A stretch of DNA of 36,248 nt from Nitrospiraceae bacterium (lineage in GTDB: Bacteria; Nitrospirota; Nitrospiria; Nitrospirales; UBA2166). The notes under the pieces are model-generated. The model made no database searches. It saw only the letters and a list, made by a program, of their open reading frames with translations, and was not told the DNA's origin. The position numbers were made by a program, and so were the translations under genes. The stretch is taken from positions 1-36,248 of the forward strand of contig PBSN01000020.1 of assembly GCA_002726235.1 (NCBI GenBank), given 5' to 3'. Shown here in pieces: positions 30,171 to 34,345 of this stretch. Position 1 is the first letter of the stretch; every line of letters begins with the position of its first letter.

Positions 30171-30479
30171 ATGTTTGGGACGATGGGATTTACAGAACTC
30201 ATCCTGATCCTTGTGGTTGTATTAATCATATTTGGAGCAGGGAAACTTCCACAGTTGGGTGAAGGCGTTGGGCGTGCGCTTAGGGGGTTCAAGAAGGAAG
30301 TCCAGTCGGATAGTCCTCCTCCCACTCCGGTGGCGGGTCATTCGGGAGATACGTCTGGGAGTATGGAAGCTGGCGATACGGACAAAGCTGATGAGGATCC
30401 CGAAGTTATTCGAGCGCGTATAGCCGAACGCCAACGGCGTGTACGCGAGCGTCAAACGGACTCTGGTCGCATGGACTAA
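30171..30479 (+). CDS. tatA: Twin-arginine translocase subunit TatA/TatE
   Basis: Pore-forming subunit of the Tat system that exports folded proteins. From ATG 30171 (102 residues) it has [21 protein letters not shown], the single N-terminal membrane helix, then the [22 protein letters not shown] amphipathic helix with the FGxxKLP-type hinge, and a charged acidic/basic tail. GGTGGGG precedes the ATG; the TTG at 30165 lies between them and is less likely. No tatC or tatB adjoins. The Tat-leader sulfite oxidase in this window is a likely client. Confidence 0.92.
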
Positions 30480-30618
30480 CACAGGGCATGACGAATGCTG
30501 TTGTGGCCAGGCTGTCGAGGGATGATTGTCGTTTAGCCGAATGTTAAAATAGCTCTCCGTTTGGGTGCATCGTGCGTTTTTTAACATCCTGCCCAGACAA
30601 TTCCCGCATAGGAAGCTA

Positions 30619-32127
30619 ATGACCTTACATGAAACAATTCTCAATCTGATTTGTGCTGTGGAGGCCGAATTGTCGCGCCAAGATGCCCCGAATGGCGCTG
30701 GAGAGATTCTCATCACACATCGCCGTCTAGTTGCCTCATCCAACACGATGTGGGTCTATTCCTGCGGTTGGGATCATACAATCCCGATGACCGAGGAGGT
30801 GCCTGTAAAGGTCAGAGTGAAAGGATCTCAGGCGCTAACCGAGGGCCGAGTTGTCGGATTTGATAATTGTACGCTCTGGCTTGGCGTTCGAAAAAACTTG
30901 GGAGCTGTAGTGCGGCCAGCGTATGTTCAGCCAGACGTGAGCAGCATCTTCCAGTCTCTGACCAGACGGCTTCACGACATAGAGCGCAACCTTATGTCAA
31001 TGGTTAAATACCCATTTGGTCAACTGTTTTCCGATGACTTGAGTCTCGTTAACGACGAGACTGATTCGAGTGTGCAGATTATCGATCTGCCACATTCAGA
31101 TGCTCGCCGAGAGCGAGTGACGGAGATTGTATTGGAGGGATTGCGTGAAGGGAAACGGATCCTATTGACATCGGCGCACAATCGTAATCTTGATGAAAAC
31201 CTCATTGCTATCGTTCGCGTAATGAGGATGGAAGGCCTCTCATATTCTACGCTTGTCACTCGTTATCCCGCGCTTGTCCTTGAGGGAAAGGGAACAACTG
31301 ATCTTCGCGAACTCGCCTTTGAACAACAACTTCGAGCTAATGTCGGCAGAGTCCAAGCTGAGCAAAATATCCTTCGATCCGCCTTCCATCGGTATCAGAA
31401 GCTGGCTCCAATCGTAGCGTTAGCGCAAGAGAAAATACGAGATTTGGAAGAAGTTGAGGCGCTCGAAGATCGCTTGTTGCGTGCAATTGATAAGCTTGAA
31501 TGCAAAGATACTGATCTTAGGATTAACGTTGAAACTTATGCCGATACTCCACTGTGGCAACGCCTTTCTATGCAGGTCGGCGGCAAAAACCCGCCCACCA
31601 TGCATAAGATGCGCTCGTGGTGTGCTGAGCAACTTGAAGAGTTACGGCAGGAATTGCTTGCGCTGTATCCACGCCTCTCAAAGGCGCGGCAGGAGGCGTA
31701 CCTCGCTCCCGAAATTTGGGAGGAGTACGAGCGATCCAAGGAGACAGTCGAGGCAAGGGGGGGGATTGAGAACGTTCGTTCTCTTATTGCTGTAGATCAA
31801 GGAGAGTTGGGCCACGTCTTTGAGGGGCGGGGCCTCGTCGCAGCAACGGCAGGGTGCGTCGCGTCTCATGATCTGTTCAATGGCCTGTCATTTGATACCG
31901 TCATTGTTGATGGCATTGATGCTGTTCCGCTACCCCTGCTTATTCCAGCAACTTGTCTAGCTCGGAAGAAAATTGTGTTGGTAGGAGCCCAATCTGACTC
32001 GCAGGTAGCGACAGTGATGGATGGTAGCGCTGAGCGCTTGCGAGTACGCATCGCATGCCTGCGTACTTCCATTCTTGAAACCTGTCGCGCACAGGCCGTA
32101 GCCGCATCACGGGCCTCACATGCCTAA
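30619..32127 (+). CDS. SF1 (Upf1/Dna2-like) helicase-domain stub, motifs degenerate
   Basis: The 502-residue protein, start fixed by AGGAAG before ATG 30619, follows the layout of an SF1B Upf1-like helicase first RecA domain. It has a beta-rich N-terminal domain (about 30-100), the motif I region (about 153-164), motif Ia GKRILLTSAHNRNLDENL (178-195), a long coiled-coil insert (about 230-390), motif II (428-435) and motif III (453-462). Key residues are gone. Where GPPGTGKT is expected it reads DLPHSDAR. The DEAx box reads VIVDGIDA. GDxxQLPP reads GAQSDSQV. The second RecA domain with motifs IV-VI is absent. Thus no ATPase or unwinding is expected. The TAA overlaps the ftsK start by eight bases, which suggests coupled translation. 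Homology is by pattern only. Confidence 0.65.
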   Translation: MTLHETILNLICAVEAELSRQDAPNGAGEILITHRRLVASSNTMWVYSCGWDHTIPMTEEVPVKVRVKGSQALTEGRVVGFDNCTLWLGVRKNLGAVVRPAYVQPDVSSIFQSLTRRLHDIERNLMSMVKYPFGQLFSDDLSLVNDETDSSVQIIDLPHSDARRERVTEIVLEGLREGKRILLTSAHNRNLDENLIAIVRVMRMEGLSYSTLVTRYPALVLEGKGTTDLRELAFEQQLRANVGRVQAEQNILRSAFHRYQKLAPIVALAQEKIRDLEEVEALEDRLLRAIDKLECKDTDLRINVETYADTPLWQRLSMQVGGKNPPTMHKMRSWCAEQLEELRQELLALYPRLSKARQEAYLAPEIWEEYERSKETVEARGGIENVRSLIAVDQGELGHVFEGRGLVAATAGCVASHDLFNGLSFDTVIVDGIDAVPLPLLIPATCLARKKIVLVGAQSDSQVATVMDGSAERLRVRIACLRTSILETCRAQAVAASRASHA

Positions 32128-34345
32128 GGTCTCTCAGCAGCTAGCTTCGGATGCCACTGGGCAATTCCGTGAAATACTAGGCATCGCCCTTGCGACAGTT
32201 TCGCTGTTGCTTCTTTTTGGGCTGCTGTCCTATATGCCGGATGATCCTCATGTCTTTCACCCTAACCCAGAAAAAGAAATACCGGGGAATTGGATTGGGA
32301 CATTCGGAGCATTGCTTTCAGATGGGCTTTTTCGATTATTGGGGACCGCGGCATACATTGTTCCATTCGGTTTAGCGATGTGGGCGTGGCGGTGCTTTGC
32401 TGCACAAGGAACCCGAGTGGCTATATTGGCTGTGGTGGGCTGGATTGGCATGGTGACGTTCGGGGGAACTCTTTTCTCGATTGGGCTTCGCGGGATCCCA
32501 ACCATTCAGGGTGGTGTTATACACATCGTGATGGAGGTAGATGCTGGTGGAATGGTGGGAAACTTCATCGCAGATTTTCTGAACGCCTATTTCGCGTCGT
32601 TTGGCAGATCGATTATCGTTATCTCCGGCCTTCTCCTCTCAGTCCTCGCGGCGCTGCCAATTTCGCTTGGATCAATAAGCCGCAATACTACGGCTGGTTT
32701 GCAATGGATAGCACGCACGCTAACACGCCGAGAGGAGGCCATCATTGCGGATGGCAAACCTGCTACTGGTGCTTTAGAGCCAATGGAGCCCGCTCCTCTT
32801 GCTTCCATGCCAGTGCCTATTCCTTCCCCAGAGCTGTCGATGGGGGCTATGAGCTTGGGTGCACCTCCAGTGTCTGATGAGCGACTGCCTTTCGCTGTTT
32901 ACCAGGGTAACGGAAAAGAATTTTCCCTTCCCGATCCCAACGCACTTCTCACTGTCCCACGGGTGAGGCCTATTCACAACCGAGATGAGCAAAGTGGCGA
33001 GCGATCTCGGCTATTGGTGCAAGCATTCAAAAATTTTGGCGTGGTTGGGACTGTTACCGCAATTCATCCAGGGCCTGTCGTGACAATGTATGAGTTCGAG
33101 CCGGCCCCTGGGATCAAAGTCAGTCGAATTGTGAGTTTATCTAACGATCTCGCACTTGCCATGAAGGCCGAAACCGTTCGTATTGTGGCGCCTATTCCTG
33201 GAAAGGCGGTTGTCGGAATCGAAATTCCGTCTGTCGTTCGAGAAGATGTTCATTTGAAAGACCTCTTGATGTGTGACACCTATCAGAAGGCGTCGTGGAA
33301 ACTCAAGGTCGTCCTTGGAAAGGACATCTTTGGTATGCCAGTGGTTGTTGACCTACAGGCGATGCCTCATTTACTGATGGCTGGAGCCACGGGTGCTGGA
33401 AAGAGCGTTGGACTGAACACCATGATTACTAGCCTGCTTTTTGCGGCCACTCCCTACGAGTTGCAGTTTCTCATGGTGGACCCAAAAATGCTGGAATTGC
33501 AAGGGTATAACGGGATTCCACATCTGCTTAGGCCGGTGATCACCAATGCCAAGGTCGCAGCTAAAGAACTCTTATGGGCCGTACGGGAGATGGAGCGTCG
33601 GTATCAATTGATGGCAGACGCTGGAGCTCGAAACATCAATCATTATAATTACGTGATATCAAATAGCGGAGAAGAGATACCGGAAATTCTCCCGTATATC
33701 GTGATCATTGTTGACGAGCTTGCTGATCTCATGATGGTCTCATCTCGAGAAGTCGAAGAATCTATTACTCGATTGGCCCAGATGGCTCGCGCATCTGGGA
33801 TGCATCTTATTCTTGCCACACAACGTCCATCAGTCGATGTCCTCACCGGCCTTATTAAGGCCAACTTTCCGTCACGCCTTGCATACAAAGTTTCGTCCAA
33901 AACTGATTCCAGAACCATCCTCGACGCTAACGGAGCCGAGATGCTTCTTGGGAGGGGCGATATGTTATTTTTGCCGGCAGGAGGGAGAATGATACGGGTA
34001 CATGGGCCGTATGCCTCAGAAGAAGATCTCCAAAACGTAGTTGATTTTCTCCGAGATCAAGGCCCATCACCCATTGTGCAAACATCCTTCCCAACAGAGA
34101 ACCAGGCGCAGGATGCTGAAAGTGGAAGTGGGGACGAATTGTATGAGAGGGCAAAGTGTCTCGTCATGGAAACCGGACAAGCCTCAGCTTCGCTGATCCA
34201 ACGGCGGTTGCGTGTTGGATATCCTCGGGCTGCTAGACTGGTCGAAATTATGCAGGAGGAAGGCATTGTCAGTCCTCCACTTCGAGATGGTCGTCGGGAG
34301 GTTGTCTTGCGACGGTCGGCTGATTCTGATCTGCAAGTGGGCTAG
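32120..34345 (+). CDS. ftsK: DNA translocase FtsK/SpoIIIE
   Basis: Septum-anchored DNA pump that clears chromosome termini at division. The 741 residues comprise four predicted membrane helices (about 18-38, 62-93, 100-124, 163-185), a proline-rich linker (about 210-280) and the motor with Walker A GATGAGKS (422-429) and Walker B YIVIIVDELADL (526-537). RLAQMARASGMHLILATQRPS marks the beta domain. The gamma winged helix (about 672-730, ASASLIQRRLRVGYPRAARL) would read KOPS-like sites. It overlaps the helicase-like stub by eight bases and is followed three bases later by lolA. Confidence 0.96.
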   Translation: MPKVSQQLASDATGQFREILGIALATVSLLLLFGLLSYMPDDPHVFHPNPEKEIPGNWIGTFGALLSDGLFRLLGTAAYIVPFGLAMWAWRCFAAQGTRVAILAVVGWIGMVTFGGTLFSIGLRGIPTIQGGVIHIVMEVDAGGMVGNFIADFLNAYFASFGRSIIVISGLLLSVLAALPISLGSISRNTTAGLQWIARTLTRREEAIIADGKPATGALEPMEPAPLASMPVPIPSPELSMGAMSLGAPPVSDERLPFAVYQGNGKEFSLPDPNALLTVPRVRPIHNRDEQSGERSRLLVQAFKNFGVVGTVTAIHPGPVVTMYEFEPAPGIKVSRIVSLSNDLALAMKAETVRIVAPIPGKAVVGIEIPSVVREDVHLKDLLMCDTYQKASWKLKVVLGKDIFGMPVVVDLQAMPHLLMAGATGAGKSVGLNTMITSLLFAATPYELQFLMVDPKMLELQGYNGIPHLLRPVITNAKVAAKELLWAVREMERRYQLMADAGARNINHYNYVISNSGEEIPEILPYIVIIVDELADLMMVSSREVEESITRLAQMARASGMHLILATQRPSVDVLTGLIKANFPSRLAYKVSSKTDSRTILDANGAEMLLGRGDMLFLPAGGRMIRVHGPYASEEDLQNVVDFLRDQGPSPIVQTSFPTENQAQDAESGSGDELYERAKCLVMETGQASASLIQRRLRVGYPRAARLVEIMQEEGIVSPPLRDGRREVVLRRSADSDLQVG

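Follow-up and report, generated by a model that had tools for sequence, protein, structure and literature searches.

A stretch of 36,248 nucleotides, the forward strand of contig PBSN01000020.1 of a Nitrospiraceae bacterium (assembly GCA_002726235.1, positions 1 to 36,248) and further called the window, carries at positions 30619–32127 (+) an open reading frame for a protein of 502 amino acids. According to structural modelling this protein corresponds to the leading half of an SF1B helicase of the Upf1/Dna2 type, comprising a barrel on a stalk, RecA domain 1 and a long arm. We regard it as an ancient, lineage-wide pseudo-helicase without ATP function, which most likely acts as a docking scaffold with the arm tip as the candidate contact site for a partner, and on balance we find this interpretation the more probable one. 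Genome comparisons indicate that the gene is a single-copy core gene of the order Nitrospirales, to which the main nitrite-oxidising and comammox bacteria belong. This near-universal gene has so far been visible only through weak Pfam helicase-domain matches, and it offers a natural case of a motor protein that was repurposed, with the ATP motifs and the second motor domain gone and the fold and arm kept.

The frame is open from the ATG at 30619 to the TAA ending at 32127. A GTG at 30565 provides an alternative, longer start, and the ATG was taken as the start because the orthologue start agrees with it. A scan for sigma-70 promoters over positions 30400–32400 gave no site, a result that carries little weight here.

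Fold and domain architecture

In an AlphaFold2 model based on 51 aligned family members (mean pLDDT 87, pTM 0.74), a helix at the N-terminus leads into a beta barrel, after which come a stalk helix and the first RecA domain; a long helical hairpin is also present. On the forward strand of the window, the N-terminal stalk helix (aa 3–21) is encoded by positions 30625–30681, the 1B-like barrel (aa 27–106) by 30697–30936 and the second stalk region (aa 107–138) by 30937–31032. The hairpin, formed by residues 234–306 and 325–379, is placed between motifs Ia and II, so that a long antiparallel coiled-coil arm (aa 234–379, positions 31318–31755) would occupy the slot of the 1C insertion; its tip (aa 307–326, positions 31537–31596) contains the invariant residues R315, Q319, G322 and N324.

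The original prediction recognised the outline of an Upf1/Dna2-like first RecA domain in this protein, and the comparison of the model with known structures agrees with it. Alignment with VIA-align gave Z-scores of 21.9 for Ighmbp2 (300 residues, rmsd 5.2), about 18 for Upf1 and 17 for Dna2, and Foldseek again returned the Ighmbp2/Upf1/Dna2 group, with E-values of 1e-7 to 4e-12. Within SF1B, the Upf1-like branch is set apart by its barrel plus stalk (PMC4716839), and the protein indeed has a RecA-like domain 1A with a barrel on a stalk, the barrel being missing in one family, f2. The barrel on its stalk and the coiled-coil arm are features that the first reading had missed. The sequence signal is weaker: Dna2 was the best match in a PDB search with the family profile (E 3e-5), and phmmer with the single sequence found nothing meaningful in the PDB. 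The Pfam AAA_11 match of the window protein has an E-value of 2.7e-5 and stays under the cut-off of that family, and 47 of the 51 family members match AAA_11. An NCBIfam match to RssC was disregarded (19 bits vs a cut-off of 250).

The second RecA domain (Pfam AAA_12) is missing from the protein, as had been claimed, and a search of the whole genome of the window organism yielded neither an AAA_12 domain nor another convincing AAA_11 protein.

Orthologues of the NS-4-type family f2 begin past the barrel, and in a model of this family the two stalk helices are joined directly. Even without the barrel, this model matches Ighmbp2 and Upf1 with Z-scores of 18–19. A clean loss of the barrel was seen at the f2 loci L005, L006, L010, L011, L014 and L019.

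Loss of the ATP-site motifs

In the window protein, DLPHSDARR stands in place of GPPGTGKT (motif I), DGID in place of DEA (motif II) and GAQSD in place of GDxxQ (motif III), in agreement with the earlier statement that the catalytic positions of all three motifs are changed. The former motif I, or Walker A (aa 155–166, positions 31081–31116, +), has kept its loop length and lost its glycines, with an invariant arginine, R163, at the position of the lysine. The segment IWGPPGSGKTTTL of active relatives from the same order (L154, L155) aligns without gaps to VWxDDxxxRRxKL of the family, which places GPPGSGKT against xDDxxxRR without an indel; the arginine at the lysine position is found in 55 of 55 aligned orthologues. 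In all of these 55, Walker A (GxxxxGK[ST]), the catalytic glutamine of the former motif III (aa 448–462, positions 31960–32004, +) and the second RecA domain are missing. The former motif II (aa 424–436, positions 31888–31926, +) has fared differently, as the DE pair is still present in 23 of the 55 and has become DG in the window. Both motifs II and III are decayed further in the genus of the window (DGID, GAQ), whereas elsewhere many orthologues keep DE and most keep GD, and the complete loss of these two motifs is peculiar to this genus.

The prediction of a pseudo-helicase can be upheld against an unrelated fold as well as against intact, two-domain orthologues, since the fold is a RecA fold of Upf1 type and all 55 orthologues are degenerate and consist of one domain. 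Motif loss is lineage-wide and combined with purifying selection, the loss of ATPase activity being judged from sequence. Since Walker A is absent and the arginine is invariant family-wide, the loss of the ATP motifs is most likely older than the split of the four Nitrospirales families.

Distribution in the Nitrospirales

A single orthologue was found in 55 of 57 relatives searched. Across a wider set, 96 of 98 Nitrospirales genomes and 0 of 197 genomes elsewhere in the phylum had the gene, and a profile search drew the same border. A survey of the order detected it in 176 of 196 genomes; for those of good quality the count is 143 of 150. It occurs in 33 of 35 genera, nearly always in one copy, and is kept in genomes of only 1.7–2.0 Mb. 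A scan of GTDB genomes left 80 loci, nearly all labelled Nitrospirales, Nitrospira or Nitrospirota and including Nitrospira moscoviensis and N. defluvii; two loci named Nitrospinota and one named Nitrosospira were taken for submitter labels. As to the absences, genome G001 lacks ftsK as well, and the absence from G036 probably reflects an assembly gap, as a contig ends 543 bases from the start of rplI, which adjoins the gene in relatives. Literature searches turned up no earlier description of an Upf1-like protein from Nitrospira.

Possible role

Conservation has shifted away from motif I and towards the coiled-coil arm, including its tip. Positions conserved at a level of at least 95% make up 19 of 73 in the first helix region of the arm (arm 1), 8 of 24 in the linker and 2 of 9 in the former P-loop, and conservation peaks in the linker (residues 380–403), arm 1 and the tip. 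Motif I shows the sharpest contrast, because motif II positions stay fairly conserved (mean top-residue frequency 0.76), as a fold element. The dN/dS ratios of close orthologue pairs are 0.07–0.26.

According to sequence comparison, the gene stems from an Upf1-like (SF1B) helicase of bacteria and represents its N-terminal half; the ATP-site motifs and the second RecA domain were most likely gone before the Nitrospirales families split, and the gene has since been kept in single copy as a core gene. The following scheme would account for these observations. The dead RecA domain would form a rigid base that bears the long coiled-coil arm, and the conserved arm tip may dock onto a partner protein or particle without ATP. 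The N-terminal barrel would be an accessory part, because family f2 has lost it. With neither an ATP site nor a second motor domain, translocation would be ruled out. The invariant residues of the coiled coil could, instead, be structural.

A proposed parallel for docking through such an arm is given by the CnuH helicases of CoCoNuT systems, bacterial Upf1-like proteins that likewise have a coiled-coil helical insertion past Walker A, proposed to dock partners or effectors from the same slot (PMC11090510). CnuH differs in having both RecA domains with their motifs and McrBC-type neighbours, none of which was seen here. More speculatively, the protein might be an order-specific core adaptor, derived from half of an Upf1-like helicase, which works via its arm in a central process such as those of the ribosome, transcription or the envelope. 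As far as we could find, a helicase-derived scaffold of this kind is undescribed in bacteria. The family-wide alignment points to residues that are worth testing, and orthologues exist in cultured Nitrospira.

A less probable, though serious, alternative is that the protein is an ATP-independent nucleic-acid clamp or RNA chaperone, which would use the barrel, domain 1A and the arm to hold single strands of RNA or DNA in the Upf1 groove, without translocation. In Upf1-like helicases, residues of motifs Ia and Ic line the nucleic-acid path. Several of these are kept, namely K179, R180 and L182 of motif Ia (aa 179–193, positions 31153–31197, +), invariant in 55 of 55, and T410 (55 of 55) in the motif Ic region (aa 404–420, positions 31828–31878, +), where F420 is likewise invariant. 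Their retention would also fit nucleic-acid binding, as would that of an Upf1-type fold with barrel and stalk. UPF1 needs its 1C insertion to bind nucleic acid (PMC6138625), and DNA-binding pseudohelicases exist. An example is PriA of Deinococcus radiodurans, a helicase without motifs that is kept in its lineage in the same way; it differs in that it belongs to another helicase family, is full length, and binds DNA without ATPase activity with DnaB as known partner (PMC4504706). Against a clamp, the protein is acidic to neutral (pI 5.9 in the window, family median 6.3), the median net charge of the barrel is −8, and domain 2, to which half of the strand is bound in the case of Dna2 (PMC4716839), is missing. 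The acidic barrel, the neutral pI and the loss of the barrel from a whole family make a protein-docking scaffold likelier than a nucleic-acid clamp.

Gene neighbourhood

The original prediction had the protein serving FtsK, made in step with it and acting as a clamp, targeting factor or regulator, which we now consider very improbable. It rested on the overlap of the stop codon (32125–32127) with the first nine bases of ftsK, the ATG of which is at 32120. This 8-bp overlap (32120–32127, +) is real, and occurs also in genome G003; in G002, the third genome of the genus in which the pair is found, a gap of 16 nucleotides takes its place. Moreover, ftsK (32120–34345, +) encodes the sole FtsK/SpoIIIE of the genome. 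The proposed check of conservation across the lineage, however, located the pair in this one genus only. In none of the remaining families are the two genes linked; where they share a contig, ftsK lies at distances of 38 kb (G026), 67 kb (G009), 541 kb (G024), 1.28 Mb (G049) and 2.9 Mb (G052). In the window, the gene lies downstream of ispH (lytB) and tatA and is followed by ftsK, lolA and a gene for a SPOR-domain protein. Among Nitrospirales loci where ftsK is unlinked to the pseudo-helicase gene, lolA follows ftsK in 26 of 27, while other genes precede it; as read by eye, rsmA occupies in several of these loci the place just upstream of ftsK that the pseudo-helicase gene has in the window.

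Families f2 and f4 couple the gene to another neighbour, as it follows a gene whose product is a small, cysteine-conserving secreted protein in 29 of 57 genomes (8/8 in f2 and 21/23 in f4), with an overlap of 4 bp in several of them; in one genome the genes are non-adjacent, on different contigs. At these loci the pseudo-helicase gene is divergent from rplI, glyA and nrdR, and in family f3 its location varies. Coupling thus recurs, yet with different neighbours that belong to different compartments, and is weak evidence of partnership. Synteny led us to reject an FtsK partnership as a conserved feature. The proximity in the genus of the window would result from a rearrangement and reflect no conserved functional link, and it may give co-expression there.

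The secreted protein (L041:9842-10348 and 28 other f2/f4 genomes) is absent from f1 and f3. It has some 140–200 amino acids, conserved LNxR, EDD and GGLGCxAxC motifs with three invariant cysteines, and no Pfam match. At the f2 locus L036, the start codon of the pseudo-helicase gene overlaps the secreted-protein gene just upstream. In three genomes (L040, L047, L049) a gene for a tyrosine-recombinase-like integrase lies directly 3' of the pseudo-helicase gene, which suggests an integration site nearby.

Accelerated evolution in the genus of the window

The pseudo-helicase evolves much faster in the genus of the window than elsewhere, whereas FtsK evolves there at a normal rate, which further argues against a role as FtsK accessory. 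Its identity to other families is 28–32% in this genus vs 45–54% among the other families (core only compared), and 39 of 78 positions conserved elsewhere have been lost on the branch; for FtsK the corresponding identities are 46–50% and 49–55% (whole length compared). The window protein is thus the most atypical member of the family, and its function may have shifted.

This divergence might be taken as a sign that the gene is decaying and being lost, at least in this genus. Such decay is even harder to believe than service to FtsK, since frames of 496–502 amino acids are intact in two of the genus members and the 3' part is intact in the third, the three are 58–78% identical, and pN is 0.28 vs a pS of 0.73. 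Local decay was also rejected in view of the presence of the gene throughout the order and the low dN/dS ratios given above.

Relation to active helicases and defence systems

A split helicase, with the second RecA domain encoded elsewhere, would explain why the protein holds domain 1 only, and is largely refuted and hardly credible, as AAA_12 is missing from 10 of 11 gene-carrying genomes, the window's own included, and domain 1 itself is without motifs I, II and III.

The differences from Upf1-like SF1B helicases (Ighmbp2, Upf1, Dna2, Sen1) are considerable. These share the barrel on a helical stalk, RecA domain 1 and an insertion between motifs Ia and II, whereas the pseudo-helicase has no Walker A, motif III glutamine or second RecA domain, a decayed motif II, and an insertion in the form of a long coiled-coil arm. 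Helicases of the COG1112 type from the same order show weak but significant homology to it in two stretches, over the barrel, the motif I region and motifs II–III. Those with a PLD domain (Mokosh-like MkoA/MkoC) measure 800–1200 amino acids and have helicase motifs and AAA_12, which the pseudo-helicase lacks. Their distribution is patchy and defence-like, in contrast to that of a core gene.

The core distribution makes a defence role doubtful, and Mokosh- or CoCoNuT-type systems have an intact two-domain helicase where this protein has a single dead domain. PADLOC gave no helicase match for the window protein, just a weak match to ZorC (E 8e-4) on the coiled coil, which was judged to be a composition match, and the candidate of a defence gene was rejected. 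The two-domain COG1112-type helicases are scattered in the Nitrospirales (L154:2251-5841, L159:3132-6206, L158, L155); the best PADLOC matches at these loci are MkoA/MkoC of Mokosh, and a PLD domain was found in both loci that were scanned for it (L154, L159).
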